Part shown: positions 333 through 23,869 of the stretch, one piece after another
Layout of the letters: each line of letters begins with the position of its first letter
Position numbering within the stretch: position 1 is the stretch's first letter
Assembly: GCA_020726285.1 (NCBI GenBank)
Contig: DYSW01000014.1
Span: 1 to 34,140 of the forward strand
Direction of reading: 5' to 3'
From: Melioribacter roseus
GTDB lineage: Bacteria; Bacteroidota; Ignavibacteria; Ignavibacteriales; Melioribacteraceae
Length of the DNA: 34,140 bases
The notes under the pieces: generated by a model
The model's input: only the letters and a program-made list of their open reading frames with translations
Databases searched by the model: none
Told to the model about the DNA's origin: nothing
Translations under genes and position numbers: made by a program

Positions 333-3300
333 ATGCGTGACAAATTGTTTTTTTTGGTGATGTTTTTAACATCATTTTCTCTCTTTGCACAAGGGGAATT
401 CAAGCTTTTAGCATCTTCAGAAACAGAAATTGTAATCTCATATAAACCAAATTATTTAAGTTTTAAGCAGAGTCTTGATAATTCATGGAAAATTTCAGTA
501 GCCAATACTTCGGTTTATCCAGATTTAGCAAATAATCAACCTAAAATCCCAATAAACATTTTCTCAATTGGTGTTCCAGCTTTTGGTTCACAAATTGAAA
601 TAGTTGAGGTTAATTACGAAGTTGTTGACGGGAAAATTGAATTATTGAATGAAAAAGAGAATTTTAACCAAGGGATTTTTCAACAAAATTGGAGTGATTT
701 TGTGGAAAATTCATCTCAAAGAATTTCAAGAAATGCCCAAATAGAGGAGTTTTGGATTTTCCCAATTATTCCAAATTCAGATAATTCATCTTTCAAGAAA
801 TTAACTGAAATTACTTTCCGCATAAAATATAAAGCAGCAACTCAAAAATTGGTTGAGAATAATGATAATCTTCTTTCAAAAGTATTATTGAACTTTGCAA
901 TTGCTAAAAAATGGGGCATTCCTCGTAAAACGATAGCAAAAGCAAATCCATCAGTATTAAGTTCAGGTATTTGGCATAGAACCAAAATTACAGATGAAGG
1001 AATTTACAAAATTAACTATCAAACTTTAGTCAATTTAGGTTTTAAACCGACTTCAGATAATCCTAAAACTATAAAAATTTATAATAATGGCGGATATGCG
1101 TTAAATGAATCTTATACATTTTTAACTCCATCTGATTTAATTGAAAATGCAATTTCTGTTGTTGGCGAAGACGATGAAGTGTTAAATGAGAATGATTATG
1201 TAGTTTTTTACGGACGAGGGACGGATTTCTTTGAAATTCAAACAACTTCGGGGAAATACGTTCGAAAACACAATCAATTTGCAAAAGGGAATTATTATTG
1301 GATAACTTGGGCGGGAAATGATGGAAAAAGAATTGCAAACGAAAACTCGCTTTCAGAATTTTCAACCGAACAAACTACAACTCAATCATTTTTATTTAAT
1401 GAGACTGATACTTACAATCCGTTAAAATCTGGTAGGCAATATTTTGGCGAACAATTTTCGATGAATCAAACTAATCGTACTTTCGACTTAAATTTTGCGA
1501 ATATCGTAAAAGAAAATCCAATTTATGTAAATTGGGCTTTTGTAAATTATAGCGTCTCGAATGTAGATTTGAATTTTTCACTAAACGGCAATTTAGTTAA
1601 AAGCGAGACAATAAATGGTTATGGTACTAATGAATATAGCGCTGGAGTACGAAAGTTAAATCATTTTACATTCTACACAAATTCCGAAATTTCCACTCAA
1701 CCATTCCTACTTAATTTTGAAGCAAATTCCACATCAGAAACTGGTGGATTAGATTTTTTTGAAGTTACTTACTACTCCAAATTAGTTGCCACAGACAACT
1801 ATCTTTCCGTGTTCGGAGAATCAATCAGTGGTGATATTAAATACACAGTTTCAAACTTTACAACAACTGCTATTGAAGTATTTGATATTACAAACTTTTC
1901 TGATGTGAAAAAAATAATTCCACTTTCAAATTCTGGTGGCGAAGTTGTGTTTGTAAAAAATCAAACAAGTTCTGCTCCAGCAAAGTTCATTTTACTTAAT
2001 TCTTCAAAATATAAAACACCGCCAACTTTCGAAAAAGTAGAAAATTCCTTTGTGAGACAATCTGACGCAAGCACAAAAATGGTAATTATTACAAATAAAA
2101 CCTTTTCAGAAGTTGCTCAAGAATATGCTGATTTTCGCATGAACGAATCGAAATTCCCAGTTTCTACATCAATTTTTTATATTGATGAAATTCAAAATGA
2201 ATTTTCTGCTGGTTTAACAGACCCAACTTCAATTCGTGGTTTTGTAAAACATATTTATGATAATTGGACAAGCATTCCAGAATATATTTTTATACTTGGA
2301 AAAGGCACTTACGATTATTTTGGAATTGAAGCAAACAAGAATAATTACGTTTTAGCTTACCACACAACAGAATCACTTTATTCCGTAAGTTCATATTTTA
2401 CTGACGATTATTATGCTTGGATTGATGGAAATGATTCCGTTGTTGATTTGGGCATTGCTCGTTTACCAATTGAATCTGATGAAGATTTACGGTTGTATTT
2501 GCAAAAAATTAAAGACTATGAAAACAATCAAGATTTTTCAAATTGGCGATATAAAATTTCTCTCGTTGCTGATGATAATATTGTCCCAAGTGGTGAAGAT
2601 ATTGCAGATCACACACCACAATCTGAAACACTTTCCGCACTTTTGCCAACTTATTTTGAGCAAAACAAAATTTATTTACTTAATTATCCTACGGTAATTA
2701 CTGGAGTTGGCAGACGAAAACCCGCCGTAAATGATGCAATTGTTGAAGATTTGAATAACGGTGTTTTGTTAATGAATTTTATCGGTCACGGAAATCCAGA
2801 TGTTTGGACTGACGAGCGTGTTTTTATGTCGGATGTTTCTATTCCGTTGCTTAAAAATACCAACTATTTCTTTTTATCAGCCGCTACTTGTTCTTTCGGA
2901 CACATAGACGACCCAGATAGAAAAGCCGCTAGCGAACAATTAATTTTTAAAGAAAATGCAGGAGCTATTGGAATTTTTGCCTCTGTGCGAGCTTCGTATT
3001 CCGACCAAAATTCAACATTGAATAATCGTTTTTATTCAAACTTGCTTGACAATCGAGATGGAATTGGCTCTAACACACTTGGCAATACATTCTTTTCTGC
3101 AAAATCGAGCTATTCTAACGAAAACACACGCAAGTTCTCTTTAATTTGCGATCCAGCTTTACGTTTACTTGAACCAGATTTCACCTCAAAAATTGATAGT
3201 GTAAGTGGTTCAGATTTGTCAGTTAACGTGCAAATTCAATCTTTATCAAAAATGAATGTAAAAGGTTCGGTTGATAATGATTCTGATTTTACTGGCGAAG

Positions 3301-4223
3301 CACTAATCACAGTATTCGATTCAGAACGCATTGTTGAACTTCCAGATATTAACGATGATATGAAAGTACAAGGTGGAATTCTTTTCAAAGGACGCTCATC
3401 AGTCGTAAATGGAAAATTTGAAACTGAATTTATTGTTCCACAGGATATTTCATTCGAAAACCGAAATGGGAAAATAATAGCCTATTTTTATAATGATGAA
3501 AAAGAAGCAATCGGTTCTACCAAAAATATTATTGTCGGTGGAAGAGATACAACTCAAACAAATGATGGAAAAGGTCCAGAAATTGAAATTGCACTTGATG
3601 ATTTTTCTTATGAAAATGCATATTTAGTAAATCCAAATTTCACGCTACTTGCCAAGCTAATTGACGAAACAGGAATCAATACAAGTGGTTTGGGTTTGGG
3701 TCATAAGTTAGAAGGAATTATTGATGGAGATGAAGAAAATCCAACAGATTTTTCGAATTCATTTATAAGCGATTTGGATAAAGGTGGAACTTCTGGCGAA
3801 ATTAATTACAAATATTACAATTTCACCGAAGGAGAACATTCAATAAAGATAAAATCTTGGGATGTTTTTAACAATGCAAGCGAAAAAGAAATTTCCTTCA
3901 ATGTAGTCTCGGGCGATGGTTTGGCAATTATGTATGTCGTCAATTACCCAAATCCATTTTCTGATGTAACATATTTTACTTTTCAACACAATCTTACAGA
4001 AACAATAGATGTTGATATTCAAATATTTTCGGTTGCAGGAAGAAAAATCAAACAAATAGAAGAAAGAAGTCTTTCTGACAAATTTGTAAAAATATTTTGG
4101 GATGGAAAAGACGAAGATGGAGATAACATCGCAAATGGCACATATTTTTATAGACTGAAAGTAAAATCTAATTCAAACAATTACTCAGAAGTTTTTACTG
4201 GAAAAATTTCGGTAGTAAAATAG
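333..4223 (+). CDS. porU: T9SS sortase PorU (C25/gingipain-like peptidase with CTD)
   Basis: 1296 aa. PorU is the cell-surface cysteine transpeptidase of the Type IX secretion system. It removes the C-terminal domain (CTD) of cargo and attaches the cargo to a surface anchor. A signal peptide (hydrophobic residues 5-18, cleavage probably after FAQ) is followed by a long N-terminal beta-rich region. The C25 peptidase core runs from about residue 580 to 950. The catalytic histidine is in IGHGNP (His819) and the nucleophile in SAATCSFG (Cys853), the usual His-then-Cys order of gingipains. A type-A CTD starts at YPNPF (about residue 1205). PorU of Porphyromonas also keeps its own CTD. A GAAGGA-like ribosome binding site precedes the ATG. 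porV follows after 40 bases, matching the common porU-porV pairing. Confidence 0.93.
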   Translation: MRDKLFFLVMFLTSFSLFAQGEFKLLASSETEIVISYKPNYLSFKQSLDNSWKISVANTSVYPDLANNQPKIPINIFSIGVPAFGSQIEIVEVNYEVVDGKIELLNEKENFNQGIFQQNWSDFVENSSQRISRNAQIEEFWIFPIIPNSDNSSFKKLTEITFRIKYKAATQKLVENNDNLLSKVLLNFAIAKKWGIPRKTIAKANPSVLSSGIWHRTKITDEGIYKINYQTLVNLGFKPTSDNPKTIKIYNNGGYALNESYTFLTPSDLIENAISVVGEDDEVLNENDYVVFYGRGTDFFEIQTTSGKYVRKHNQFAKGNYYWITWAGNDGKRIANENSLSEFSTEQTTTQSFLFNETDTYNPLKSGRQYFGEQFSMNQTNRTFDLNFANIVKENPIYVNWAFVNYSVSNVDLNFSLNGNLVKSETINGYGTNEYSAGVRKLNHFTFYTNSEISTQPFLLNFEANSTSETGGLDFFEVTYYSKLVATDNYLSVFGESISGDIKYTVSNFTTTAIEVFDITNFSDVKKIIPLSNSGGEVVFVKNQTSSAPAKFILLNSSKYKTPPTFEKVENSFVRQSDASTKMVIITNKTFSEVAQEYADFRMNESKFPVSTSIFYIDEIQNEFSAGLTDPTSIRGFVKHIYDNWTSIPEYIFILGKGTYDYFGIEANKNNYVLAYHTTESLYSVSSYFTDDYYAWIDGNDSVVDLGIARLPIESDEDLRLYLQKIKDYENNQDFSNWRYKISLVADDNIVPSGEDIADHTPQSETLSALLPTYFEQNKIYLLNYPTVITGVGRRKPAVNDAIVEDLNNGVLLMNFIGHGNPDVWTDERVFMSDVSIPLLKNTNYFFLSAATCSFGHIDDPDRKAASEQLIFKENAGAIGIFASVRASYSDQNSTLNNRFYSNLLDNRDGIGSNTLGNTFFSAKSSYSNENTRKFSLICDPALRLLEPDFTSKIDSVSGSDLSVNVQIQSLSKMNVKGSVDNDSDFTGEALITVFDSERIVELPDINDDMKVQGGILFKGRSSVVNGKFETEFIVPQDISFENRNGKIIAYFYNDEKEAIGSTKNIIVGGRDTTQTNDGKGPEIEIALDDFSYENAYLVNPNFTLLAKLIDETGINTSGLGLGHKLEGIIDGDEENPTDFSNSFISDLDKGGTSGEINYKYYNFTEGEHSIKIKSWDVFNNASEKEISFNVVSGDGLAIMYVVNYPNPFSDVTYFTFQHNLTETIDVDIQIFSVAGRKIKQIEERSLSDKFVKIFWDGKDEDGDNIANGTYFYRLKVKSNSNNYSEVFTGKISVVK

Positions 4224-4263
4224 AAACAACTAAATTTGAAAATTAATTTAATGGAGATCTTTA

Positions 4264-5418
4264 ATGAAAATCAAACAAATAATCGCTTTGCTCGTTTTAA
4301 TATTTGCGGCAATTCCGCAAATTGATTTTGCACAAGGTGGAGGTTATACATCTGTGCCATTCTTATTGCTTTCACCAGATTCGCGTGCGGGCGGAATGGG
4401 AGAAACAGGTGGCGGACTTGCAGATGACGCTTCGGCGGTTTTCTGGAATCCTGCGGGATTAGCTTTTACAGCTGGTTCCGAAGTGCAATTAACTCATAGT
4501 AATTGGTTGCCTCAACTTAATCTTGATTTATTTTACGACTTTCTCGCTTATCGCCAATACATTGATGAAATTGGCGGAAGTGTTTCAGCAAGTATTGTTT
4601 ATATGAATTTTGGCGAATTTTTTAGAACCGGAGAAGCTGGACCCGAAGTTTTAGGTACTTTTCGTGCTTTTGATGCTTCTGCAACAATTGGTTATGCGAC
4701 CAAAGCTACAGAAGATTTAGGAATTGGTTTTAACTTCAGACTAATTCACAGTAGATTAGCAGACCAAGCAACTGGCGAAGAAAAAGGTTCTGGTGTTGCA
4801 ACAAGTGTAAGTTTTGACGTAGCTACAATGTGGAGACCAAAAACAATTTTTGGAATGTTTGAAGATAGTTTTAGTCTTGGTATAAATATTAGTAATCTTG
4901 GTCCTAAAATGTATTACATCGATCAAGCACAAGCCGACCCAATTCCAACTAACTTTAGATTAGGAACGGCTTTCCGTGTTTGGGAAGATGATTTCAACTC
5001 GTTAACAATAACCGCAGATTTTTCAAAATTACTAATTGCTGTTGATACAGCAAAAAATATAAAATCAGAATTCTATGAAGCAATATTTACTTCGTGGGGC
5101 GATGAAGAAATGTCAACCGAATTTCGCCAAATAGTTTCTACAATTGGGATGGAATATTGGTATGGAGATCCAAATGATTTCCAATTTGCAGTACGAAGTG
5201 GATTTTTCTATGAAGACCCAGATTACGGAAATAGAAAATTTATGACTTTCGGAGCTGGTTTAAAATACGATATATACAATTTTGATTTCAGTTACATTTC
5301 CTCATCACTTGCTGGAGCTGAAGAATCGCATCCACTTTCTGGAACTTTGCGATTTACTTTGGGAGCAAGATGGGGAGAACAAAATCGGACAATAAAAGGA
5401 TTACCACGAGGAATCTAA
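4264..5418 (+). CDS. porV: T9SS outer-membrane shuttle protein PorV
   Basis: 384 aa. PorV (LptO) is an FadL-like 14-strand outer-membrane barrel that collects CTD cargo from the translocon and brings it to PorU. The signal peptide ends near residue 24 (DFAQG). The PorV/PorQ family signature DDASAVFWNPAG lies at residues 54-65 and is followed by alternating beta-strand sequence to the end. Length is normal for the family. GGAG seven bases upstream supports the ATG. It is 40 bases after porU, and the next gene starts 6 bases after its stop, so all three are probably one transcript. PorQ is the main alternative, but adjacency to porU favours PorV. Confidence 0.9.
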   Translation: MKIKQIIALLVLIFAAIPQIDFAQGGGYTSVPFLLLSPDSRAGGMGETGGGLADDASAVFWNPAGLAFTAGSEVQLTHSNWLPQLNLDLFYDFLAYRQYIDEIGGSVSASIVYMNFGEFFRTGEAGPEVLGTFRAFDASATIGYATKATEDLGIGFNFRLIHSRLADQATGEEKGSGVATSVSFDVATMWRPKTIFGMFEDSFSLGINISNLGPKMYYIDQAQADPIPTNFRLGTAFRVWEDDFNSLTITADFSKLLIAVDTAKNIKSEFYEAIFTSWGDEEMSTEFRQIVSTIGMEYWYGDPNDFQFAVRSGFFYEDPDYGNRKFMTFGAGLKYDIYNFDFSYISSSLAGAEESHPLSGTLRFTLGARWGEQNRTIKGLPRGI

Positions 5419-5424
5419 CACAAA

Positions 5425-8397
5425 ATGAAAATGAAAATGCTTTTTTTGTTAATTTTCAGTTTCATTGCGATTTCTGAAAATCAATTTACGCAACAATTCA
5501 AACCAGAATTGTTTCTTCAAGCTAAAGGTGAAATTAAGGAAATAAATTCCGATACTCTGAAAATTCTTGCTTTAATGGTAGAATTTCAACCAGATCAATA
5601 TGATGCCACAGAAGGAAATGGAACTTTCGGCTCGCACTACACTACAGAAAGTGCAAATAGGACAGACATTCTTGATCCACTTCCGCATAATGAAGAATAT
5701 TTCAATAATCATTTACTTTTTGCTAAAAATTACTTTGCAAAAGCATCAAAAAATCGGTTGAATATCGAATACAGTATTTTTCCCGTGAAAGTTACATTAG
5801 ATAGCACAATGCGAAATTATTCTCCCGAAGTTGGCTCGAGCGATGTAAGTAGAATTGCGAGAATGAGCCAACAAGCTTGGCAAAAAGCAGCAAATCACGA
5901 AATTGCTTTTCCATATCAAGATTATGATATGTTCATTATTTTTCACGCTGGAGTCGGACGCGATGTAAGTTTTCCTGGAAGTTTGGGAATTGAACGAGAT
6001 ATTCCTTCAGTATATTTACGATTTAATGATGCAATAGTAATGCCTGATGGTGCTTCTATTTTGCACACAGCGGTTTTACCTGAAACTGAATCTCGCGAAG
6101 CACAAACAATCACTGGTTCTGTTTTAGTTGAATTAACAATAAATGGTTTGCTTGTTGGTATGATTGGCAGTCATATCGGTTTGCCAGATTTGTTTAACAC
6201 TGAAACTGGTTATAGTGCAATTGGAAGATTAGGTTTGATGGATGGTGAAAGTATGTTTGCCTATCTCGGTGCTTTTCCTCCGCTACCTTCGCCTTTCGAA
6301 AAACAATTGCTTGGTTGGTTAGATATTACTGAAATTCCTTTAGTCGATAAAAATATTTCGGTTACAACTTACGAAACAGCAAGTTCTTTCTTTGGAGATA
6401 CAACAATTGTAAAAATTCCAATTAATTCTAAAGAATATTTTTTAGTGGAAAATAGACAGCGAGATGCCCGAAAAAATGGTGCAATGGTTACTTATATCAA
6501 CGATGGAATAACTTACCAAAAAATATTTGAAAAAGACTCAAGTGGATATTTTAATAATTGGGATTTAACAGCACTCGAAGGTGTAATTACAAATGTTGAT
6601 GAATTTGACTGGGCGTTGCCTGGCGGTGGAATTCTGATTTGGCACATTGATGAAAACATTATTGATGAAAAAATTACTTCGAATTCAATTAACAATGACT
6701 CGAAAAATAAAGGTGTAAAAGTTATTGAATCCGATGGAATTGATGATATTGGTGTAAAATTTACAACTGTTTTTGGTGATACTTTTGTCGGAGCTGGTGA
6801 TTCAACAGATTTTTGGTTTTCTGAAAATTGGGCGAATTATTACGAAAATGAGTTTTCTGCAAATTCCAAACCGAATACAAATGCTAATTCTGGCTCAAAT
6901 AGTGGAATTTCATTAACAAATTTTACAATAAATTCTAATCAAATTTCATTCGATTTTGAATATAAACCCGAAAAAGTGGAATTTGTTACGAGAATGACAA
7001 GCGAAAATTCAATCCAAATACAAAACACTGTTTCTGCTCAAAATTCCGAGAAAATTGGTATTCTCTCCGAAAACAATTTGCAAATATTCGATTATTCTGG
7101 AAATCTGCTTTCTGAATTTGACGATTTCTCTAACGGAAATTTGATTCAATTCTATTCTTCAAATGAAAATAAATCAATTTTTGTAGGCAATGTCGGAGAA
7201 AATCTGAATTTTGTTTCAATTGATGAAAATGGAACGGATTTGCAAATAATAACTTTTGGCGATGAAATAACTTCGGAACTTTCGGCACAAATTGAAAGCG
7301 ATTTTGTTGTAAACTTCGCTTATTCTGAAAATGCAACCGAAAAAGTTGTTGAACTTGATTTAACAAACACTTCAAACCCGATAGTAAATACAAGTAATTT
7401 TCTAATTCAGAAAATAATTCCGCTATTTGATTCTAAAATTCTTGTTGGAACTAGGGAAATTGAAATTTTGGGTAATTCATACACATTAACTCAAAATATT
7501 TTGAATGCTTTCTTTGCTCAAACAAACGCAAATTCAGTAAAATCTCAATTTCTTATTGTTCACACAAACGATAATAAAATTCATATTCTTGAAATTAGTT
7601 CAAGTGGAATTTCGCCATTTGCTGAAATTGAGAATTCGAATGAAATCAGCAATTTATCGTTAGTCCCAAATGAAAACAGAAGTGAGATTTTCATCTCATT
7701 TTCATCTGATTCGACACTTTTTGCGTACAACTTGGTTGGGAATTTGATTGATAATTATCCAATTGTAATTCCAAATCGAATTTCGGATGAATATACAAAT
7801 TCGCAAAGCTCTCTTGTTTCGTATTATGATGGAGAAAATCTGAAGAAACTTTTTGTTTCAGAAGAAGGTGATTTGTATCCTGAAAATTCATCAAATCCAA
7901 TCCTTTCAGTTGGAATCGAAAATGAAGGAAATCCTTTGATTTCTGTTCAAACCGGAAAGTTGTTCGGAATTATGAAATCGAACTCTAATTTAGATATTTA
8001 CCAAATATTTACAGAAGCTGAACCTTCAATTTTGTGGAGTGGAAATTCATCAAACTCTACAAATTCTTCTGTCCTAATTTTAGATGAAATATCAGTTTCT
8101 GAACCAAATTTCAATACAATTAAAGCATACAATTGGCCAAATCCCATTTACGATGGTGGAATTACACATTTTAGATATGCTTTTAGAGAAGATTCTAAAG
8201 TTACAATTACAATTTTCGATTTAGCGGGGTGTTTAGTTGCAGAATTGAACGGAAATTCCCGTGCAAATTTCGAATCAGAAATTGATTGGAATACAGAAAA
8301 TGTTAAAAGTGATGTTTATTTTGCATCATTTTCGGCAAAAGGAAATGACAGCGGAAAAGAATATCAAAAAATTATTAAAGTTGCAGTTATTAAATAG
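5425..8397 (+). CDS. M6-family metallopeptidase homologue lacking zinc-site residues, T9SS exported
   Basis: 990 aa. The start of the chain looks like a hydrophobic signal peptide (MKMKMLFLLIFSFIAIS). Residues about 45-310 resemble the M6 (immune inhibitor A-like) peptidase fold: an opening segment with LKILALMVEF, the segment ending GLPDLF, and a Met-turn-like GRLGLMDGES. Active M6 enzymes have HEFGHxxGLPDL at the zinc site. Here the aligned residues 245-249 read GMIGS, so both zinc histidines and the catalytic glutamate are replaced. A long serine/asparagine-rich beta region follows, and the last ~90 residues are a CTD-like domain (WPNPI at the usual YPNPF position). It follows porV by 6 bases. 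Inference: a surface pseudo-peptidase handled by the T9SS. The fold assignment is good; its role is unknown. Confidence 0.72.
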   Translation: MKMKMLFLLIFSFIAISENQFTQQFKPELFLQAKGEIKEINSDTLKILALMVEFQPDQYDATEGNGTFGSHYTTESANRTDILDPLPHNEEYFNNHLLFAKNYFAKASKNRLNIEYSIFPVKVTLDSTMRNYSPEVGSSDVSRIARMSQQAWQKAANHEIAFPYQDYDMFIIFHAGVGRDVSFPGSLGIERDIPSVYLRFNDAIVMPDGASILHTAVLPETESREAQTITGSVLVELTINGLLVGMIGSHIGLPDLFNTETGYSAIGRLGLMDGESMFAYLGAFPPLPSPFEKQLLGWLDITEIPLVDKNISVTTYETASSFFGDTTIVKIPINSKEYFLVENRQRDARKNGAMVTYINDGITYQKIFEKDSSGYFNNWDLTALEGVITNVDEFDWALPGGGILIWHIDENIIDEKITSNSINNDSKNKGVKVIESDGIDDIGVKFTTVFGDTFVGAGDSTDFWFSENWANYYENEFSANSKPNTNANSGSNSGISLTNFTINSNQISFDFEYKPEKVEFVTRMTSENSIQIQNTVSAQNSEKIGILSENNLQIFDYSGNLLSEFDDFSNGNLIQFYSSNENKSIFVGNVGENLNFVSIDENGTDLQIITFGDEITSELSAQIESDFVVNFAYSENATEKVVELDLTNTSNPIVNTSNFLIQKIIPLFDSKILVGTREIEILGNSYTLTQNILNAFFAQTNANSVKSQFLIVHTNDNKIHILEISSSGISPFAEIENSNEISNLSLVPNENRSEIFISFSSDSTLFAYNLVGNLIDNYPIVIPNRISDEYTNSQSSLVSYYDGENLKKLFVSEEGDLYPENSSNPILSVGIENEGNPLISVQTGKLFGIMKSNSNLDIYQIFTEAEPSILWSGNSSNSTNSSVLILDEISVSEPNFNTIKAYNWPNPIYDGGITHFRYAFREDSKVTITIFDLAGCLVAELNGNSRANFESEIDWNTENVKSDVYFASFSAKGNDSGKEYQKIIKVAVIK

Positions 8398-8406
8398 GAA
8401 ATAGAT

Positions 8407-11400
8407 TTGATGAATAAGATATTTGCGATTATGTTGCTTTTTTCAGTTAGTATTTTTGCACAATACAACGAGTTTAATCCCGAATACGAGTGGTTTACTA
8501 TTGAAGGAAAACATGTAAAAGTGCATTTCCACGAAGGAACTGAACGAACAGCAAAAATTGTTTTAAAAATTGCAGAAGAAGTTTGGGAACCGATTACAAA
8601 TTTATATGGTTTTGAACCAGAAACTGTTCATTACATAATTAAAGATATTAATGATTATTCCAACGGAGCAACTTATTTCTTTGATAATAAAATCGAAATT
8701 TGGTCTTCAGCTTTGGATTTCGATTTGCGTGGATCACATAATTGGCTTCGTAACGTAATAACTCATGAATTTGTACATATGGTAAATTTGCAAACAGCAA
8801 TGAAAATGAGTCGCAGAATTCCAGCTTTCTACCTTCAATACTTGCATTATCAAGATGAACGCCGCCCAGATGTTCTTTACGGTTATCCGAATACAATAAT
8901 TTCGTATCCAATTGCGGGAATTAACGTCCCAAATTGGTTTGCTGAAGGAACTGCACAATATCAAAGAAAAGAATTCAATTATGATAATTGGGATTCGCAC
9001 CGCGATATGATTTTGCGAAGTTACATTTTGGGAAGTAATTTGTTAAGTTGGAACGAAATGGGAGTTTTTAGCAAAACAAGTTTAGGCAACGAATCAGTTT
9101 ATAATCTTGGTTATAATTTGGTGGATTATATTTCGCGTGTTTACGGCGAAGAGAAACTCCAACAAATTTTTGCTGAATTGAAGAACCCATTAACTGTTAC
9201 AATAGATAAAGCAATTGAAAATGTAATAGGAATTGAAGGAATTGAACTTTACAATCAATGGAAATTGCATCTTGAAAAGGATTATCAAGCTCGTATTAGT
9301 CCAGTTTTGAAAAATGAAGTGAAAGGAACTGAGATTGAATCGGAAGGTTTTGCAAATCTTCAACCACATTTTTACGAAAACGGCAAAAAAATTCTATATT
9401 TATCCAACAAAGGAATGGATTATTTAAGTCAAACAAGTGTTTATTCATTTGACATTTCCACAAAAGAGAAGAAAAAAATTGTTCGAAAAGTTAATTCGAA
9501 TGTGGAATTCATTTCAAACACGAACAAAATATTGTTTGCAAAGTTGAGTACTGAAAACCCAAAATGGACAAATATTCATGATTTATTTATTTACAATTTA
9601 GATGATGAAGAAGAAACTAGACTTACTTTCGGACTTCGGGCAAATAATCCCTCAATTTCATCAGATGGTAAAAAAGTTGTATTTCTGTTCCAAAAAGATG
9701 GAACAACTAATCTTGGGACAGTTACTATCGATGGAAAAAATTTCAGACAATTAACATTTTATGATCGCGGTGAACAAGTTTTTAATCCCGTTTTTTCACC
9801 CAAAAATGATGAAATATATTTTGGAATTATAAAAAGAGATAATCAGGATATTGCTAAAATTGATACAAACGGCGCCAATTTTGAATTTGTACTGAATTTA
9901 GAATCTGATGAAAGAAATCCAAGTTTCGGAAAAGATGGAAAATTCTACTTCTCTGATGATAAAACTGGAATTTTCAATATCTATGAATATAATTTTTCAT
10001 CAAAACAAAGAACTCAGATTACAAACGTTACAGGCGGTAGTTTTTATCACGATATTGATTCTGAAGGAAACATTGTATTTGCAAATTATACTTCAACGGG
10101 TTATAAATTGAATTATCTTTCCAAAAATGAAAGGAAACCAATTTTAGCGGAAGATAACTATCTAAAAACATCTGAATTCTCATTGCCAAAGTCAAAAACA
10201 TTGCAAGATTTAGAACAAGGCGAAATTTCGTATCTTAAAAATTATGATGATTTTACTTTGCCTGAATACGAAGTTAAAAAGTATAAAGGACAATATACAA
10301 ATGCCACGTTAATTCCTTTTGTTAGATATGACGATTACAACACAACAAGCAACGCTCTCGAAAAATTTAAATTTGGCTTATACTTTGCTTCGTCTGATTA
10401 TCTTAATCGATATGATATTTTTGCTGGTTTTGGAATGAATTCTCGTTTTGAAAGAGACGCTTTTTTGATGTTTAATTATCGCGATAAAATTCCATTTTTA
10501 ATTAATCTTGGTTTAAAACCGCAAATTAGTCTCGAACTTTACAACGTTACACGTAAAGCAAGTGCTGATATTTATTTTAATGTTGATTCAACAGACCAAG
10601 ATTTTGGAGCAGATTATCACACAAAAACTGATGTAACCTACAATTTGTTAGAATTTGACTTTGCGGCAAAGCAGAATTTTCTTTCAGAAGATAATTTTCT
10701 TGAATTTAGATATATTTTAAGCAAATATTCAGCAACAATCGGAAGTTTTCTTCTACCCGGCAATACTTATCTTTATCCAACAACAAACGATACTTATTTA
10801 TATGGACACAATTTTCAATTAACATTTAACCATACAGATTATTTAGCAAATAGAAATATGTGTATAAATCCGATAGGTAGAAAAATTGAAGTTAAAGTGA
10901 ATTATGAAATGAACAACTATAATTCAGAAGGAGAATACACAGTTGAAAATGGTGCTTTGAAACCAATTTATGGTGATTTTTATTTTCCTCGACTTGAAAT
11001 GCGTTGGTCAGAAAATTTCCGTGTGTTTGATTCACATTCAGTGAATTTTAAGTTGAAATATGGAACAATTTTTGGACCACCACAACCTAATTTCTTCGAT
11101 TTTTACATTGGTGGCTTAAATGGAATGCGAGGTTATCCTTTCTATTCACTCGGTGGAAACGAAATGGCGACATTAAATGTTAGTTACAGATTTCCACTTT
11201 TCAGAGAAATTGATTATCGACTTGGATTATGGTACCTCGACAAAATGTATTTTACTTTTTTTGGCGATGTTGGAAATGCTTGGAACGAAGGCGTGCTAAA
11301 ATTTGATGATTTGAAAAAAGACGTTGGTGCCGAATTACGAATGAAATTTGTCTCATTTTATATTTTTCCAACAGCAGTATTTTTCAGTTGGTCTTATTCA

Positions 11401-11499
11401 TTCGATCAAGTAGAAGAAATGGTGAACACAACAAATGTAATCTCGGGAAAAGAATCGCGATTCTACTTTGGTGTTTTATTTGATTTTGAACTTTATTAA
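8407..11499 (+). CDS. Gluzincin (peptidase MA-like) fused to beta-propeller and Omp85-type barrel
   Basis: 1030 aa in three parts. After a signal peptide (cleaved near FAQ, residue ~19), residues ~25-300 are a peptidase MA-like gluzincin: HEFVH at 120-124 and the downstream glutamate in NWFAEGTAQY (Glu180) make a complete zinc site. Residues ~305-560 contain WD40/TolB-like propeller repeats (NPSISSDGKKVVF, NPVFSPKNDEIYF, NPSFGKDGKFYF). From ~640 to the end the sequence is an outer-membrane barrel of Omp85/surface-antigen type. It has GMRGY (906-910), matching the conserved loop-6 RGF/Y motif, then GDVGNAW, and an aromatic C-terminus. It lies 9 bases after the M6-like gene in the T9SS operon. 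The domains are visible; a role in processing or inserting surface proteins is inference. Confidence 0.8.
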   Translation: MMNKIFAIMLLFSVSIFAQYNEFNPEYEWFTIEGKHVKVHFHEGTERTAKIVLKIAEEVWEPITNLYGFEPETVHYIIKDINDYSNGATYFFDNKIEIWSSALDFDLRGSHNWLRNVITHEFVHMVNLQTAMKMSRRIPAFYLQYLHYQDERRPDVLYGYPNTIISYPIAGINVPNWFAEGTAQYQRKEFNYDNWDSHRDMILRSYILGSNLLSWNEMGVFSKTSLGNESVYNLGYNLVDYISRVYGEEKLQQIFAELKNPLTVTIDKAIENVIGIEGIELYNQWKLHLEKDYQARISPVLKNEVKGTEIESEGFANLQPHFYENGKKILYLSNKGMDYLSQTSVYSFDISTKEKKKIVRKVNSNVEFISNTNKILFAKLSTENPKWTNIHDLFIYNLDDEEETRLTFGLRANNPSISSDGKKVVFLFQKDGTTNLGTVTIDGKNFRQLTFYDRGEQVFNPVFSPKNDEIYFGIIKRDNQDIAKIDTNGANFEFVLNLESDERNPSFGKDGKFYFSDDKTGIFNIYEYNFSSKQRTQITNVTGGSFYHDIDSEGNIVFANYTSTGYKLNYLSKNERKPILAEDNYLKTSEFSLPKSKTLQDLEQGEISYLKNYDDFTLPEYEVKKYKGQYTNATLIPFVRYDDYNTTSNALEKFKFGLYFASSDYLNRYDIFAGFGMNSRFERDAFLMFNYRDKIPFLINLGLKPQISLELYNVTRKASADIYFNVDSTDQDFGADYHTKTDVTYNLLEFDFAAKQNFLSEDNFLEFRYILSKYSATIGSFLLPGNTYLYPTTNDTYLYGHNFQLTFNHTDYLANRNMCINPIGRKIEVKVNYEMNNYNSEGEYTVENGALKPIYGDFYFPRLEMRWSENFRVFDSHSVNFKLKYGTIFGPPQPNFFDFYIGGLNGMRGYPFYSLGGNEMATLNVSYRFPLFREIDYRLGLWYLDKMYFTFFGDVGNAWNEGVLKFDDLKKDVGAELRMKFVSFYIFPTAVFFSWSYSFDQVEEMVNTTNVISGKESRFYFGVLFDFELY

Positions 11500-17173: not shown

Positions 17174-17191
17174 TAGATAAAGAAAATTGTA

Positions 17192-17228
17192 TTTGTAACT
17201 TGTTTGTAATTAGTTTCGGTTAATTTTT
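17192..17228 (+). promoter_or_regulatory. Phased direct repeats and -7 element before the response regulator (Pho-box-like)
   Basis: TTTGTAA occurs at 17192-17198 and again at 17203-17209, exactly 11 bases apart. A degenerate third unit begins TTT at 17214. A TAATTTTT element (17221-17228) starts 14 bases after the T of the last TAA. Direct repeats with an 11-base period replacing a -35 box are the pattern bound by PhoB/PhoP-type regulators, so the downstream regulator may control itself. The gene's ribosome binding site, AAAGGTGA, lies further downstream near 17248. Confidence 0.5.
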
Positions 17229-17258
17229 TAATACAAAATTAATCTTAAAGGTGAGATT

Positions 17259-17942
17259 GTGAAGAAGATTTTAATTGCTGAAGATGATATTGATATCAGG
17301 GAAATAATTGAATTTAATTTGCAAAATGCTGGTTATTCAACAATTCCAGTTAAAAATGGACATGAAGTTCTTGAACAAATAAATAAAATGCCCGATTTGA
17401 TTTTGCTTGATATAAATATGCCTGGTTTGAATGGATTTGAAGTGTGCACAAAAATTCGTAAAAACACTAAGTTTGATGAAATACCAATAATCTTTATCAC
17501 AGCACGTGATGAAGAAATTGATGAATTGCGTGGACTATCACTTGGGGCGAACGATTACATAACAAAACCTTTTTCACCTGCCAAAATTCTTGCAAGAATT
17601 AAAACACATCTCCGTAAAGCTAAAGATCCGAATCAAAATAGCATTTCTTTTACAACAGAAGATGGAATTCTTGAAATAAACGAAGAAAAGTACATTGTTG
17701 TTGTAAACAACGAAAAGTATGATTTACCTAAAAAAGAGTTTGATTTGCTTTATTATCTTGCTAAAAATATGGGAAGAGTTTTTGACAGAGAAAATATTTT
17801 GAATAATGTTTGGGGCTTAAATGTTTATGTGAGTGATAGAACGATTGATGTTCACATTCGAAGAATTCGTAAAAGATTAGGAATTTTTGGGAAATATATT
17901 GAAACAATAAAAGGTGTTGGGTACAAATTTTCACAAATCTAA
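17259..17942 (+). CDS. OmpR/PhoB-family response regulator
   Basis: 227 aa from a GTG start preceded by AAAGGTGA at good spacing. The receiver domain (1-120) has the acidic pocket (AEDD, residues 7-10), phosphoacceptor Asp51 in LLDINMPG, Thr81 in FITARD and Lys103 in ITKPFSP, so it looks competent for phosphorylation. Residues ~130-227 are a PhoB-type winged helix, with RVFDRENILNNVWG, then SDRTIDVHIRRIRKRL, and ending in GVGYKF. There is no adjacent intact sensor kinase. A ruined kinase lies about 10 kb downstream but nothing links the two. The phased repeats in its own promoter and in the next gene's promoter make it the likely regulator of both. It could be PhoB itself, but the OmpR family is large and sequence alone does not settle the signal. 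Confidence 0.9.
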   Translation: MKKILIAEDDIDIREIIEFNLQNAGYSTIPVKNGHEVLEQINKMPDLILLDINMPGLNGFEVCTKIRKNTKFDEIPIIFITARDEEIDELRGLSLGANDYITKPFSPAKILARIKTHLRKAKDPNQNSISFTTEDGILEINEEKYIVVVNNEKYDLPKKEFDLLYYLAKNMGRVFDRENILNNVWGLNVYVSDRTIDVHIRRIRKRLGIFGKYIETIKGVGYKFSQI

Positions 17943-17954
17943 CAGTGTAATTTC

Positions 17955-18013
17955 TCGTTAATAATGATTTAATATAAAGTTAAGACTTAGCTAACCTTCT
18001 TCTTCTAATTTTG
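17955..18013 (+). promoter_or_regulatory. Four 11-bp-phased TAA repeats plus TAATTTTG element before the TonB receptor
   Basis: GTTAA (17957), TTTAA (17968), GTTAA (17979) and GCTAA (17990) are spaced exactly 11 bases apart. A perfect match to the Bacteroidetes -7 consensus TAnnTTTG (TAATTTTG, 18006-18013) starts 14 bases after the T of the last TAA, the same distance as in the response-regulator promoter. There is no -33 TTTG, which fits an activator-dependent promoter. The arrangement recalls cyanobacterial Pho boxes (YTTAAYYW repeated every 11 bases). It lies in the 99-base gap between the regulator and the receptor gene. Confidence 0.5.
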
Positions 18014-18033
18014 GGCTCGTTTATTTTATTATA

Positions 18034-18050
18034 AAGGAGAAGTGGGATTG
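18034..18050 (+). promoter_or_regulatory. Ribosome binding site that decides a TTG start
   Basis: AAGGAGA at 18034-18040 is one base from an in-frame GTG at 18042, which is too close. It is seven bases from the TTG at 18048, a normal distance. The receptor therefore most likely starts at TTG 18048, giving MKTNLFTII and a standard signal peptide. Confidence 0.6.
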
Positions 18051-20909
18051 AAAACTAATTTATTCACAATCATTTTGAGTTTGTTTTTATTAACAAATTC
18101 AATACTATCTCAAGAAAAAGGGATAGTTTATGGCAAAGTAGTGGACGCAAAGAGTGGCGAATCATTACTTGGCGTAAATATTTTTTTACAAGGAACAACT
18201 TTAGGCGCAGCATCTGATTTAGATGGCGAGTACATCATCAAAAATATTCCCATTGGTGAATATTCTATTATTTATTCAATGGTTGGTTTTGAAAAGAAGA
18301 TAATCAGCAACGCAATTATTGAAAAGAGAAAGTCTTTAAAGCTTGATATTGCTTTATCTGAAGAAACTTTTGAAACAACCGAAGTAATAATAACAGCTAA
18401 AGCAATAACAAGTTCTGAAGCTGGTTTATTGGTCAAACGACAAAAATCAAATTCAATAAGTGATGCAGTTGGTTCGGAGCAAATAGGGAAAAGCGGCGGA
18501 AGTAATGCTGCAGAAGCTGTAAAACAAATAACTGGTGCTTCAGTTTTTAACGGTGAAGATGTTTTCGTTCGAGGTCTAGGCGATAGATACACAAGCACAA
18601 ACTTGAACGGAGCTCAAATTCCAAGTGTTGATCCTTACAAACAAAATTCCTCAATTGATATTATTCCATCAAGCATGATTGATAACGTTCAGGTTGTAAA
18701 ATCATTTACTCCAGATAAACGTGGTGATTTTTCCGGTGGAATTGTTGATATTGAGACAAAAAGTTTTCCAGATAGATTTACATTAGCAATTACTTCGAAA
18801 GCAAGTTCGATTAATGGGTTAACATTCTCAGAAAATGGTTTGGCAGCAGAGGCAAGTTCAACCGATTGGCTTGGAATGGATGACGGAAAACGTGCATTAC
18901 CTTCATTTCTAAAAAATACAACCTATGTTGCTAACCCAGGTGGAGCTTCACAAGATTCTGAAATTGCAGCCGAAATGGATAAAGTAACTAATGCTTTTAA
19001 TCCAGAAATGGCACCACATAAATATACAGTTCCTTTAAATCAAGATTATGCACTTTCTTATGGAGATCAGTACACTTTATTTGGAAATACATTGGGTGTA
19101 ATTGCAAGCGTTTCTTATAAAAATGGATTTTCTGGTTATACAGATGGTGAAATTAATCGTTGGACACGAGGTGTTATTGATCCAACAAAATCGCAATTAG
19201 ATAACACATATTCAATGTCTGATACAAAAGTTACAAATAATGTTTTGTGGACTACAATGGCGAAAATTTCGTATAAATTGGATAATCAAAACATAATTAC
19301 ACTAAATTCTCAATTCAACCAAAATGGAGAATCAGTTTCAAGATATCTATCAGGTTCATATCCATACGATTTAGACCCAGAATGGTTATATGAAGCTAGA
19401 ACAATTCAATATAAAGAACGTTCTTTGGAATCTTACCAATTAAATGGCGAGCACAGATTTGCTGATTTTTTTGATGGTAATTTTGATTGGAGACTTTCTT
19501 ATCAAAAATCTTTGCAAAATGACCCCGATACAAGATTTTTCTACAATTTTATGACTGATGATTCAGTTTACGGAATAAAAACAAATCTAATGCCTGAAAG
19601 ATATTTTAGAACTACTGATGAAGATCAAATTGAATTCCAAAGTGATTTTACAATTCCTTTTCATCAATGGAGCGACTTGAATTCCGCTTTCAAAATAGGT
19701 GGTTTCCTATCTCAAAAACAAAGAACATTTATTGAAAGAAGATTTTCTTATCAACCAACTTCAAAAATTGGTACATATTTTCGAAATGAAAACGGTGATA
19801 TTGATGCTCTATTTTCGGAAAAATATCTTGGTTGGGTAAGAACTGATACTCTTGCAAACGGAACAATTCAAAATATTCTCCCAATTTATATTCAAGAAAC
19901 GGATCAATCATCAAATAATTATGATGGTGAAAGCAACATATATGCAGGCTATGCAATGATTGATTTGGGAATTCTCTCAAATTTGCGAATGATTGCTGGA
20001 GCCAGAATTGAAAATACTAGAATGCAAACATTTTCAGCTGAAGATAATTCTATAATCGGCGAAATAAAAACAAGCGATGTTTTGCCTTCTTTCAATTTGA
20101 TTTATACTCCACTTGAAAATTTAAACATAAGATTTTCATACGGTAAAACGTTAGCAAGACCAACTTTTAGAGAAATCTCACCATTTACAAGTTACGATTT
20201 TAACGGCGGGGATACTTATATTGGCAACCCAGCATTAGAAAGAACTACAATAGATAACCTCGATTTACGTTTTGAATGGTTTATAAAAGCTGGTGAAATT
20301 GTTGCAATTAGTGGTTATTACAAGGAATTTAAAAATCCAATTGAGGTTATGATTCAAGACGCAGTTAATAGTGTTTTAACTTGGACAAACGTTGATAAAG
20401 CTAAAGTAATGGGACTAGAATTTGAAACAAGAAAGAAACTTGATTTCATTCATCCTTATTTTAACGATTTTACTTTAGGTGGTAATTTCTCATACATTTT
20501 TTCAGAAGTTCAAATTCCTGAATCCGAGTTACTAGTTTTACGAGCATATGACCCAGAAGCAAAAGATATTCGTCCATTTACTGGTCAATCTCCATACTTA
20601 ATAAATGTATTTTTGGGATATGATAACTACGATGCCGGTTTTTCATCAAACTTATATTTCAATGCATTTGGAGAAAGACTATTCGCACTTGGATCAGTTG
20701 GTGCCCCAGATGTATATGAAAAATCGTTCAATCTATTGAATTTTTCCGCTTCACAAAGAATTTCAGAAAATTTCTCAATTTCCATTGGTGTTAAAAATAT
20801 TCTTGATGATTCCATTACTCAGATCCAAGAGTTCAAAGGAACAGAATATATCTACAACAACCACTTTAATGGAAGAAGTTACGATTTTGGTTTAAAATTT
20901 AACTTATAA
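18048..20909 (+). CDS. TonB-dependent receptor with carboxypeptidase-like N-terminal domain
   Basis: 953 aa from TTG 18048 (an in-frame GTG lies at 18042). A signal peptide ends near SQEKG. Residues ~25-110 form a CarboxypepD_reg-like beta-sandwich (VYGKVVDAKSGESLLGVNIF, then AASDLDGEYIIKNIP). The plug domain (~130-235) has the conserved VRGLGDRYTSTNLNG (from ~174) and FSGGIVDIE. The rest is the 22-strand barrel, with YGKTLARPTFREISP and a closing aromatic strand ending LKFNL. Such receptors import a bound ligand using TonB energy; the substrate cannot be read from sequence. The next gene starts 17 bases after its stop, so the pair is almost certainly co-transcribed. The candidate phased-repeat promoter lies directly upstream. 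Confidence 0.93.
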   Translation: MKTNLFTIILSLFLLTNSILSQEKGIVYGKVVDAKSGESLLGVNIFLQGTTLGAASDLDGEYIIKNIPIGEYSIIYSMVGFEKKIISNAIIEKRKSLKLDIALSEETFETTEVIITAKAITSSEAGLLVKRQKSNSISDAVGSEQIGKSGGSNAAEAVKQITGASVFNGEDVFVRGLGDRYTSTNLNGAQIPSVDPYKQNSSIDIIPSSMIDNVQVVKSFTPDKRGDFSGGIVDIETKSFPDRFTLAITSKASSINGLTFSENGLAAEASSTDWLGMDDGKRALPSFLKNTTYVANPGGASQDSEIAAEMDKVTNAFNPEMAPHKYTVPLNQDYALSYGDQYTLFGNTLGVIASVSYKNGFSGYTDGEINRWTRGVIDPTKSQLDNTYSMSDTKVTNNVLWTTMAKISYKLDNQNIITLNSQFNQNGESVSRYLSGSYPYDLDPEWLYEARTIQYKERSLESYQLNGEHRFADFFDGNFDWRLSYQKSLQNDPDTRFFYNFMTDDSVYGIKTNLMPERYFRTTDEDQIEFQSDFTIPFHQWSDLNSAFKIGGFLSQKQRTFIERRFSYQPTSKIGTYFRNENGDIDALFSEKYLGWVRTDTLANGTIQNILPIYIQETDQSSNNYDGESNIYAGYAMIDLGILSNLRMIAGARIENTRMQTFSAEDNSIIGEIKTSDVLPSFNLIYTPLENLNIRFSYGKTLARPTFREISPFTSYDFNGGDTYIGNPALERTTIDNLDLRFEWFIKAGEIVAISGYYKEFKNPIEVMIQDAVNSVLTWTNVDKAKVMGLEFETRKKLDFIHPYFNDFTLGGNFSYIFSEVQIPESELLVLRAYDPEAKDIRPFTGQSPYLINVFLGYDNYDAGFSSNLYFNAFGERLFALGSVGAPDVYEKSFNLLNFSASQRISENFSISIGVKNILDDSITQIQEFKGTEYIYNNHFNGRSYDFGLKFNL

Positions 20910-20926: not shown

Positions 20927-23869
20927 ATGAAAAAAATTACATTAATCATGCTAAATTTGATGCTTTCTGCATCTTTATTTGCACAAACATCTGGCTTCTT
21001 CGATGAAGTAAATTACAAAGGAGCCTTTGGAAGCAGTAACTGGCTAAAAGGTTGGACAGCTTTAGACCATTATGGATATTTAGCACCAGCAACCACAAGC
21101 AGCAGCGAAGTAACCGTAACAGATGGAGATATCAATTCAGGAGAAGTAGTATATTGGACAGCAGACAAAACCTATATATTAGATGGATTTGTATATGTAG
21201 AAGATGGAGCAGTCTTAAATATAGAAGCAGGAACAGTAATAAAAGGTAAAACAGGTCAAGGCGAAAGTGCAAGTGCCTTAGTAATAGCACAAGGCGGAAA
21301 AATCTATGCAGAAGGAACTTCAACCAGCCCAATCATCTTTACAGGCGAAAGCGATGATGTAAACAATCCAAACGATTTACCATTGCCAACCTCAAATTTA
21401 TGGGGAGGCTTAATTATCTTAGGAAAAGCTCAAATCAATACAACAATTGGTGTAGGTAATATCGAAGGATTACCAGTAAGTGAAAAGAGCCAATACGGTG
21501 GAGAAGATGATCACGATAATAGTGGAGTATTGCGTTATATTTCAATACGTCACGGAGGAACAGATATCGGTTCAGGCAACGAAATCAACGGATTGACGTT
21601 GGGTGGCGTAGGAGATGGAACAACAATAGAATATATAGAAGTATTTAACAATAATGATGACGGATATGAATGGTTTGGCGGAACAGTAAATTGTAAGTAT
21701 TTAGTAAGTGTATTCAACGGAGATGATGCATTTGATCATGATGAAGGACTCAGAAGCAAAATGCAATTCTTATTTGCCATCCAAGATTCAGAGATGGGCG
21801 GTCACTTAGGCGAACATGATGGAGGAACAGTTCCAGAAGATGGAGAACCATATGCTTTCCCACAAATCTACAATGCAACGTTCTTAGGAAGTGGAGTAAG
21901 TTCAACAAATCCAGACAACTCAAATCTATTTAACTTACGCGATTTCTGGGGTGGCTTATACAATAATAGTATCTTCGGAGATTTTCGAGGAGATGCGATG
22001 AAAGTAGAAGATTTAGCAACAGGAAATGATAGTAGATTAAGATTAGAAAATGGACAAATAGTATTCAAAAACAACGTATGGTTTGATTTTGGAGCAGGCA
22101 GTACATTCGCAGAATTAGGTAATCACGAATGGGAAGCAGCATATTTATCAGATGCGGCAAATGGAAACACAATAGAAAATCCAGGATTGAAATCAATAAA
22201 TAGAATGTCTTCAACAGCAAGTTTAGACCCACGTCCAACTGCTGGTGGTGCTGCTTACCAAAATTTAGCTGCTTTAACAGATGAATTCTTCGATGAAGTA
22301 AATTACAAAGGAGCCTTTGGAAGCAGTAACTGGCTAAAAGGTTGGACAGCTTTAGACCATTATGGATATTTAGCACCAGCAACCACAAGCAGCAGCGAAG
22401 TAACCGTAACAGATGGAGATATCAATTCAGGAGAAGTAGTATATTGGACAGCAGACAAAACCTATATATTAGATGGATTTGTATATGTAGAAGATGGAGC
22501 AGTCTTAAATATAGAAGCAGGAACAGTAATAAAAGGTAAAACAGGTCAAGGCGAAAGTGCAAGTGCCTTAGTAATAGCACAAGGCGGAAAAATCTATGCA
22601 GAAGGAACTTCAACCAGCCCAATCATCTTTACAGGCGAAAGCGATGATGTAAACAATCCAAACGATTTACCATTGCCAACCTCAAATTTATGGGGAGGCT
22701 TAATTATCTTAGGAAAAGCTCAAATCAATACAACAATTGGTGTAGGTAATATCGAAGGATTACCAGTAAGTGAAAAGAGCCAATACGGTGGAGAAGATGA
22801 TCACGATAATAGTGGAGTATTGCGTTATATTTCAATACGTCACGGAGGAACAGATATCGGTTCAGGCAACGAAATCAACGGATTGACGTTGGGTGGCGTA
22901 GGAGATGGAACAACAATAGAATATATAGAAGTATTTAACAATAATGATGACGGATATGAATGGTTTGGCGGAACAGTAAATTGTAAGTATTTAGTAAGTG
23001 TATTCAACGGAGATGATGCATTTGATCATGATGAAGGACTCAGAAGCAAAATGCAATTCTTATTTGCCATCCAAGATTCAGAGATGGGCGGTCACTTAGG
23101 CGAACATGATGGAGGAACAGTTCCAGAAGATGGAGAACCATATGCTTTCCCACAAATCTACAATGCAACGTTCTTAGGAAGTGGAGTAAGTTCAACAAAT
23201 CCAGACAACTCAAATCTATTTAACTTACGCGATTTCTGGGGTGGCTTATACAATAATAGTATCTTCGGAGATTTTCGAGGAGATGCGATGAAAGTAGAAG
23301 ATTTAGCAACAGGAAATGATAGTAGATTAAGATTAGAAAATGGACAAATAGTATTCAAAAACAACGTATGGTTTGATTTTGGAGCAGGCAGTACATTCGC
23401 AGAATTAGGTAATCACGAATGGGAAGCAGCATATTTATCAGATGCGGCAAATGGAAACACAATAGAAAATCCAGGATTGAAATCAATAAATAGAATGTCT
23501 TCAACAGCAAGTTTAGACCCACGTCCAACTGCTGGTGGTGCTGCTTACCAAAATTTAGCTGCAATAGTTTCAGTTGAAAATATTTCTTTCGAAGATGTAA
23601 ATCCAGCTGACTTTGCTTTAAATCAAAATTATCCAAATCCATTTAACCCATCAACTGTTATTAATTTTGAATTAAAATCAAATTCAAATATTTCATTGAA
23701 AGTTTATAATGTTTTAGGAGCTGAAGTTGCAACTTTAGCAAATGGAAATTATGCTTCAGGAAAATATAATGTAACATTTGATGCTTCAAAATTATCTTCT
23801 GGAGTTTATTTCTATAGACTACAAGCTGGAAACTTTATTGAAACAAAGAAAATGGTACTTATAAAATAG
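20927..23869 (+). CDS. T9SS-exported beta-helix protein with exactly duplicated passenger
   Basis: 980 aa. A signal peptide (to about residue 20, SLFAQ) is followed by two identical ~426-residue copies (24-449 and 454-879) joined by a few residues, then a type-A T9SS CTD (from about residue 900, NYPNPFNPSTVINF to the end). Each copy reads as a right-handed beta-helix: VLNIEAGTVIKG, LWGGLIILGKAQ, GVLRYISIRHGG. It is rich in Asp/His (GGEDDHDNSG, GDDAFDHDEG), which suggests calcium or other metal binding. Proteins of this type commonly sit beside TonB receptors in Bacteroidetes relatives, and their function is unknown. The start is supported by AAAGGA upstream. Codon choice in the passenger differs from that in the CTD. 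A surface-exposed or secreted ligand-capturing partner of the receptor is inferred. Confidence 0.85.
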   Translation: MKKITLIMLNLMLSASLFAQTSGFFDEVNYKGAFGSSNWLKGWTALDHYGYLAPATTSSSEVTVTDGDINSGEVVYWTADKTYILDGFVYVEDGAVLNIEAGTVIKGKTGQGESASALVIAQGGKIYAEGTSTSPIIFTGESDDVNNPNDLPLPTSNLWGGLIILGKAQINTTIGVGNIEGLPVSEKSQYGGEDDHDNSGVLRYISIRHGGTDIGSGNEINGLTLGGVGDGTTIEYIEVFNNNDDGYEWFGGTVNCKYLVSVFNGDDAFDHDEGLRSKMQFLFAIQDSEMGGHLGEHDGGTVPEDGEPYAFPQIYNATFLGSGVSSTNPDNSNLFNLRDFWGGLYNNSIFGDFRGDAMKVEDLATGNDSRLRLENGQIVFKNNVWFDFGAGSTFAELGNHEWEAAYLSDAANGNTIENPGLKSINRMSSTASLDPRPTAGGAAYQNLAALTDEFFDEVNYKGAFGSSNWLKGWTALDHYGYLAPATTSSSEVTVTDGDINSGEVVYWTADKTYILDGFVYVEDGAVLNIEAGTVIKGKTGQGESASALVIAQGGKIYAEGTSTSPIIFTGESDDVNNPNDLPLPTSNLWGGLIILGKAQINTTIGVGNIEGLPVSEKSQYGGEDDHDNSGVLRYISIRHGGTDIGSGNEINGLTLGGVGDGTTIEYIEVFNNNDDGYEWFGGTVNCKYLVSVFNGDDAFDHDEGLRSKMQFLFAIQDSEMGGHLGEHDGGTVPEDGEPYAFPQIYNATFLGSGVSSTNPDNSNLFNLRDFWGGLYNNSIFGDFRGDAMKVEDLATGNDSRLRLENGQIVFKNNVWFDFGAGSTFAELGNHEWEAAYLSDAANGNTIENPGLKSINRMSSTASLDPRPTAGGAAYQNLAAIVSVENISFEDVNPADFALNQNYPNPFNPSTVINFELKSNSNISLKVYNVLGAEVATLANGNYASGKYNVTFDASKLSSGVYFYRLQAGNFIETKKMVLIK
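20996..22272 (+). repeat. Perfect tandem direct repeat, copy 1
   Basis: 1277 bases, beginning TTCTTCGATGAAG, repeated with an offset of 1290 bases. I compared most lines of the two copies by eye and found no difference. The 1290-base offset is 430 codons, so the reading frame is kept. Confidence 0.95.
22286..23562 (+). repeat. Perfect tandem direct repeat, copy 2
   Basis: Second copy of the 1277-base unit, separated from copy 1 by 13 bases (TTTAACAGATGAA) that do not recur after copy 2. After position 23562 the sequence passes into the linker and the CTD. Confidence 0.95.

Follow-up and report, generated by a model that had tools for sequence, protein, structure and literature searches.

Phased TAA repeats of two classes mark candidate Pho-type promoters of an orphan PhoB-like regulator gene and a TonB receptor gene in Melioribacter

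Organization of the locus

The DNA analyzed here, referred to as the window, is a stretch of 34,140 nt from Melioribacter roseus that represents contig C105 of a complete-looking genome bin of an uncultured organism. Two intergenic gaps enclose a response regulator gene, and the second gap is followed by genes for a TonB-dependent receptor and an ElpS-like protein:

17174 to 17258: gap 1, between genes, 5' of the response regulator gene
17194 to 17212, forward strand: class A operator, two TGTAAY units with a period of 11 bp, TAA at 17196 and 17207
17221 to 17228, forward strand: −7 element TAATTTTT, 14 nt past the last TAA (T17207)
17259 to 17942, forward strand: orphan PhoB-like response regulator, 227 aa, receiver and winged-helix (Trans_reg_C) domains, GTG start
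17943 to 18041: gap 2, 5' of the TonB receptor gene
17947 to 18001, forward strand: class B operator, five TAA units at 17948, 17959, 17970, 17981 and 17992
18006 to 18013, forward strand: −7 element TAATTTTG, 14 nt past the last TAA (T17992)
18042 to 20909, forward strand: TonB-dependent receptor with a CarboxypepD_reg-like N-terminus
20927 to 23869, forward strand: ElpS-like secreted protein, predicted beta-helix, doubled, with a T9SS C-terminal signal

In gap 1, the TTTGTAA copies can be read directly from the sequence at 17192–17198 and 17203–17209, in agreement with the initial annotation, which had placed an 11-bp repeat of this type at the same coordinates, with a TAATTTT(T/G) element at a distance of 14 nt. 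In gap 2, the 11-base phase and the 14-nt offset described before hold, whereas the count of four units does not: a fifth in-phase TAA lies at 17948, and the units are, in order, of the types GTAA, TTAA, TTAA, TTAA and CTAA. Transcription is predicted to start near 17233 for the regulator gene and near 18018 for the TonB receptor gene, and the start codon of the latter is, as judged from the sequence, more likely TTG at 18048, 8 nt after AAGGAG. TAnnTTTG is the −7 box of the main sigma factor of flavobacteria, spanning −12 to −5 (PMC9723704). If the box takes this position here, the last TAA falls at about −26 and the repeats stretch upstream over the −33 region, which would resemble the placement of activators substituting for the −35 contact.

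The ElpS-like gene is putatively in one operon with the receptor gene. Its predicted likeness to ElpS runs through homologues in the same gene order. Members of the family accompany TonB receptors in many phyla, and pst/pho genes are often close by (Latescibacterota, Opitutaceae, Pontibacter); in relatives, the TonB pairing comes with a T2SS or pho/pst link. The gene order is ElpS-like, TonB receptor, T2SS genes in Indioceanicola and phoB, phoR, pstS, oxygenase, ElpS-like, TonB receptor, ExbBD on an Alteromonas plasmid, which corresponds to the neighbourhood elpS-cc0171-gsp of Caulobacter. In Caulobacter, ElpS is made in phosphate starvation (PMC2996285). A sequence search of the PDB with the ElpS-like protein gave no match, and the top PDB matches of its structure model (pLDDT 79) were all beta-helices (pectin-lyase-like) and weak, with E values of 0.004 or worse. 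The gene itself is an in-frame tandem doubling of 1290 bp (20927–23869 of the window; 5573–8515 of locus L288). Between its two units, about 1277 nt are identical in the window and 1265 nt in the nearest relative, G001, even though the two species differ by about 9.5% in the ElpS-like region; this may point to homogenisation that is still going on, unless the assembly produced the effect in both bins. A T9SS block at 333–11499 of the window encodes the PorU sortase, an inactivated M6-like T9SS metalloprotease and a large TolB-propeller protein, and its 384-aa protein at 4264–5418 resembles, by eye, PorV-type outer-membrane proteins. In the same genome (G000), contig C117 carries a stretch of N inside a small ORF near 12.7 kb (L083).

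Conservation of the repeats and their two classes

The layout of gap 1 was recreated in 74 of 40,000 dinucleotide shuffles of that gap, and the layout of gap 2 (at least four units and TAnnTTTK at +14) in none of 40,000 shuffles of gap 2. A loose composite, TAA-N8-TAA-N11-TANNTTTK, was searched in the 2.06-Mb genome with the reversed pattern as control and showed no genome-wide enrichment (10 sites versus 14 and 20), so that the count was dropped as proof and conservation was taken as the test instead. Yet three of these 10 sites are the promoters of pstS, the window regulator and the TonB gene, and at least five of the remaining seven fall within coding sequence, which bears out the earlier statement that phase and equal spacing are the real signal.

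The comparison drew on about 130 relatives. The promoters of TonB receptor genes were compared at 30 loci: one each from the own genome and G001, plus 28 belonging to other genera within the family and order. At least four TAA units with a period of 11 were present upstream of the receptor at 27 of the 30 loci, while periods of 7–10 and 12–16 gave at least four units at none of them; of 29 arrays, 26 had a TAnnTTTG box (at least five of six matches) at offset 14, and no other offset was seen more than twice. The consensus consists of repeated (c)TTAACATt units followed by TAnnTTTG. Moreover, among 80 loci of many phyla, at least three TTAAYA-like units were observed 20 times at a period of 11 as compared to 3, 0, 1 and 0 times at periods of 9, 10, 12 and 13. 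Conservation is the decisive evidence. That the repeats arose by chance in AT-rich DNA, for which the unenriched loose pattern might speak, is hardly conceivable in view of the shuffles and the specificity of period and offset, and is already refuted by conservation across phyla. The repeats and their spacing in both gaps are thus confirmed as real and far above chance.

The genome possesses a single operon pstS-pstC-pstA-pstB-phoU-regulator-kinase on contig C84. Upstream of pstS stands GTAATAATTCT GTAATAAATAT GTAACATCTGC AAAG TACATTTT, i.e., three GTAA units in 11-bp phase and the −7-like box TACATTTT at exactly +14. The initial annotation had named pst and phoU genes as places where the motif might recur, and the operon for PstSCAB, PhoU and a PhoB/PhoR-type pair indeed has the same promoter; together with the arrays at phosphate genes of relatives, this supports the reading of the gaps as activated promoters of the Pho type. 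The description of the two promoters as matched applies to their common geometry, but not to the type of unit, which is TGTAAY in two copies in one and TTAA-type in four to five copies in the other; hence it is right for the geometry and not necessarily for the protein reading both promoters.

We accordingly distinguished class A, TGTAAY-N5-TGTAAY-N10-TAnnTTT with two or three units and the −7 box at +14, from class B, (TTAACA-N5)n ending 14 nt before TAnnTTTG, mostly with four to six units. Class A is found before the window regulator and before those pst operons that include a regulator gene of their own, and class B before TonB-ElpS. The 2.2 Mb of DNA taken from targeted stretches contain 10 distinct strict class A sites:

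pst or porin-pst promoters: G000, G001, G013, G017, G019, G124
regulator promoters: G000 and G001 (window regulator), G017 (homologue of the window regulator)
TonB promoter: G019, where TonB-ElpS adjoins the pst operon

All genomes with strict class A sites also encode a pst-linked regulator, and near-class-A sites were seen in G003 (offset 13) and G011 (weaker box). Genomes without a pst-linked regulator have TTAA-type arrays at pst or none that is clear, and several of their phosphate operons showed no clear array. The link between class A and the pst-linked regulator had been written down in advance of the analysis of the G013 and G124 promoters, and both fitted. As the pst-linked operon may have a single origin, its class A promoters should not be counted as wholly independent; those of the window regulator, the regulator of G017 and TonB in G019 are separate cases. 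A Fisher test (8/8 versus 0/9) suffers from bias, some members of the second group having been gathered by the TTAAYA pattern or by eye, and unbiased support comes from the PstS-query set and the class A scan.

G017, which belongs to another genus, repeats the arrangement of the window, with class A before the regulator and class B before TonB-ElpS, and its regulator homologue adjoins a kinase gene. Among genomes with both regulators, class A precedes the homologue only in the genus of the window and in G017; no box was found before the homologue in G013, G019 and G124, and the homologue's operon in G011 is preceded by a class B array. In G131, G132 and G133, the genes for TonB-ElpS, PstS, in some cases also PhoU, and a window-type regulator are clustered (L277, L279, L281, L306–L308); in G131 and G133, TonB is preceded by class B arrays.

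A scan of 20 genomes with TTAAYA-N5-TTAAYA-N9-TANNTTTG, allowing one mismatch, gave matches before TonB receptors, PstS (G048), porin-PstS (G005), OlsF/GlsF-like acyltransferases (G014, G046) and a GT21 glycosyltransferase (G022). In the own genome, a match precedes a PAP2-GH1-GT21-metallophosphoesterase operon on contig C85, where a five-unit TTAA array (36821–36877; L066) lies between this operon and an OlsF/GlsF-like acyltransferase gene. Triple TTAA sites elsewhere in the genome were mostly scattered or coding, and the C85 site was kept because the lipid operon follows it; pattern matches on C36 and C23 lay inside genes and were discarded. Replacement of phospholipids by glyco- and aminolipids is a classic response to phosphate starvation, and the C85 genes are predicted to form a phosphate-controlled lipid-remodelling cluster. 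In Flavobacterium johnsoniae, lipid-remodelling genes are phosphate-induced too (PMC8115612).

The two regulators and the proposed wiring

The genome encodes two OmpR-family regulators only, the one in the window and the one in the pst operon on another contig (C84; positions 9915–10589 of locus L064), where it is paired with the PhoR-type kinase. The window regulator scored highest with the Bacteroidota PhoB model NF053854 (226.6, below the cut-off of 270) and reached 217.7 with TIGR02154 (cut-off 296.2), which was the top model of the pst-linked regulator (234, likewise below cut-off). Since neither passes the curated PhoB cut-offs, both are named PhoB-like. The earlier assignment of a PhoB-family regulator between the gaps therefore stands as far as PhoB likeness and the receiver and Trans_reg_C domains are concerned, but not with respect to the curated cut-offs or an adjacent kinase: no PhoR-type kinase gene adjoins the window regulator in G000 and G001. 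Candidates for its source of phosphorylation are PhoR of the pst operon or another kinase; a 244-aa kinase on C138 only weakly resembles (27%) the usual kinase partner. In most Ignavibacteria relatives, the window-type regulator and its kinase follow dxs, in many cases separated from it by a Gfo/Idh oxidoreductase, and these dxs-linked regulators have no phased array (L087–L101, L276, L278, L280 for both observations).

WalR and similar OmpR-family proteins read TGT(A/T)A(A/C/T)-type repeats, and the window protein scores 197 bits with YycF/WalR. Moreover, the PhoP motif of Riemerella is similar to that of E. coli ArcA (PMC9603813). It is nonetheless very unlikely that another OmpR-family stress regulator, WalR-like or ArcA-like and not specific for phosphate, uses the 11-bp repeats, as PhoB models score highest and the targets, comprising pst, porin-PstS, ElpS and lipid-remodelling genes, carry a phosphate signature.

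In the phylogenetic tree, the window regulator branches with Bacteroidota regulators that adjoin ElpS-TonB, with a support (91/92) below the threshold of the tree program, and the conserved regulator of the regulator-kinase pair behind dxs in Ignavibacteria falls into the same branch; the pst-linked regulators form a separate clade (100/99). The recognition helices read RT(I/V)DVH(I/V)R(K/R)(I/L)R in window-type regulators versus mostly (R/H)(T/K)V(D/N)V(N/T/A)(I/V)KRLRD in pst-linked ones, with RTIDVHIRRIRKRL in the window regulator itself and RTVDVHIRRLRKAL in E. coli PhoB. This consistent difference between the clades, as well as the strong class B arrays where a window-type but no pst-linked-type regulator was detected, makes it unlikely that pst-linked PhoB binds both classes, with G or T before TAA tuning affinity only and the window regulator being an ordinary regulon member with other targets, even if the units grade into one another, GTAA being the first one before the TonB gene of the window, and the genome has just the two OmpR-family regulators.

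Both gaps are probably Pho-type promoters, and the most likely wiring would lead from low phosphate via PhoBR and the window regulator to TonB-ElpS. It is backed by the promoter layout, its conservation, its presence at pst and the occurrence of class A only alongside a pst-linked regulator, whereas the binding of the proteins to DNA, the response to phosphate and the sequence of steps in the cascade are inferred. We propose that PhoB-family regulators would bind the 11-bp repeats head to tail on one face of the helix and would activate the main sigma factor at the TAnnTTTG −7 box, 14 nt past the last TAA. At low phosphate, the promoter at 17194–17228 would thereby turn on the orphan regulator and the promoter at 17947–18013 the TonB receptor and the ElpS-like protein, which may jointly scavenge phosphorus outside the cell.

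More specifically, PhoR-PhoB of the pst operon may read the class A TGTAAY pair and turn on pst and the window regulator, which in turn may read the class B TTAA-type array and turn on TonB-ElpS and the PAP2-GH1-GT21 lipid operon. Such a nesting of two operator codes within one Pho regulon, paired TGTAAY for pst-linked PhoB and TTAACA arrays for the second PhoB-like regulator, is offered tentatively, and is consistent with the occurrence of class B by itself where only the window-type regulator was detected. If true, the second regulator would run outer-membrane scavenging and membrane-lipid replacement in a staged phosphate response, and paralogous regulators would combine separate DNA codes with identical promoter geometry.

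The main rival to the cascade is autoregulation, with the window regulator binding its own promoter weakly by two TGTAAY units and that of TonB strongly by five units, and pst-linked PhoB uninvolved. Positive autoregulation is frequent among PhoB-type genes, Riemerella PhoP binds its own promoter (PMC9603813), the class B array of G011 precedes the operon of a regulator homologue, and the TAA core and 14-nt spacing are common to both box types. However, class A was seen solely in genomes with a pst-linked regulator, where it also fronts the pst operons, and in genomes with only a window-type regulator the pst and porin genes have either class B or no clear array, so that we consider autoregulation possible but doubtful.

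Comparison with known phosphate systems

The comparison of genomes yields an explicit model of two operator classes, with which further Bacteroidota genomes can be searched. Furthermore, it ties the TonB-ElpS pair, widespread and poorly understood, to phosphate control in several phyla, and lipid-remodelling genes join the predicted regulon. Our literature searches found no paper on the Pho operator of Ignavibacteria and no direct match for a Bacteroidota Pho box motif.

As in the window, the boxes of E. coli PhoB and of B. subtilis and Streptomyces PhoP consist of several 11-nt head-to-tail direct repeats and lie just upstream of the −10/−7 element of pst and other phosphate genes, whereas their units are CTGTCAT or GTTCACC instead of TTAACA or TGTAAY (PMC4415409). 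Unlike these classical Pho boxes, the arrays described here are followed by the Bacteroidota TAnnTTTG box and comprise two unit classes in one genome. The most conserved PhoP core, TTTAACA, determined by DAP-seq in Riemerella anatipestifer, for a Bacteroidota regulator of the PhoB/PhoP type, is like the class B unit; this PhoP is tied mainly to aerotolerance and pathogenicity and not to a phosphate regulon (PMC9603813). In the phoBR/PUSIV locus of F. johnsoniae (Fjoh_0541–0549), a PhoB gene likewise lies beside a CarboxypepD_reg-type TonB receptor, accompanied by a secreted beta-helix lipoprotein related to Caulobacter ElpS, and these homologous genes are strongly induced when phosphate is depleted, with log2 values of about 3 for PhoB (Fjoh_0544), about 8 for the receptor (0545) and about 10 for the lipoprotein FII (0546) (PMC8115612). 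F. johnsoniae PhoB adjoins PhoR, whereas the regulator of the window is an orphan with its own Pho-type promoter besides a separate pst-phoU-phoB-phoR operon. Similarly, the elpS (cc0170)-cc0171-T2SS locus of Caulobacter crescentus combines an ElpS-type protein and a TonB receptor with a link to phosphate starvation (PMC2996285); in contrast, the window has a T9SS-type signal, the receptor gene before the ElpS gene and no adjoining T2SS genes. Taken all together, the promoter pair is real and conserved; loci of this type have precedents in Flavobacterium and Caulobacter, and what is new is the pairing of operator codes and the possible cascade.
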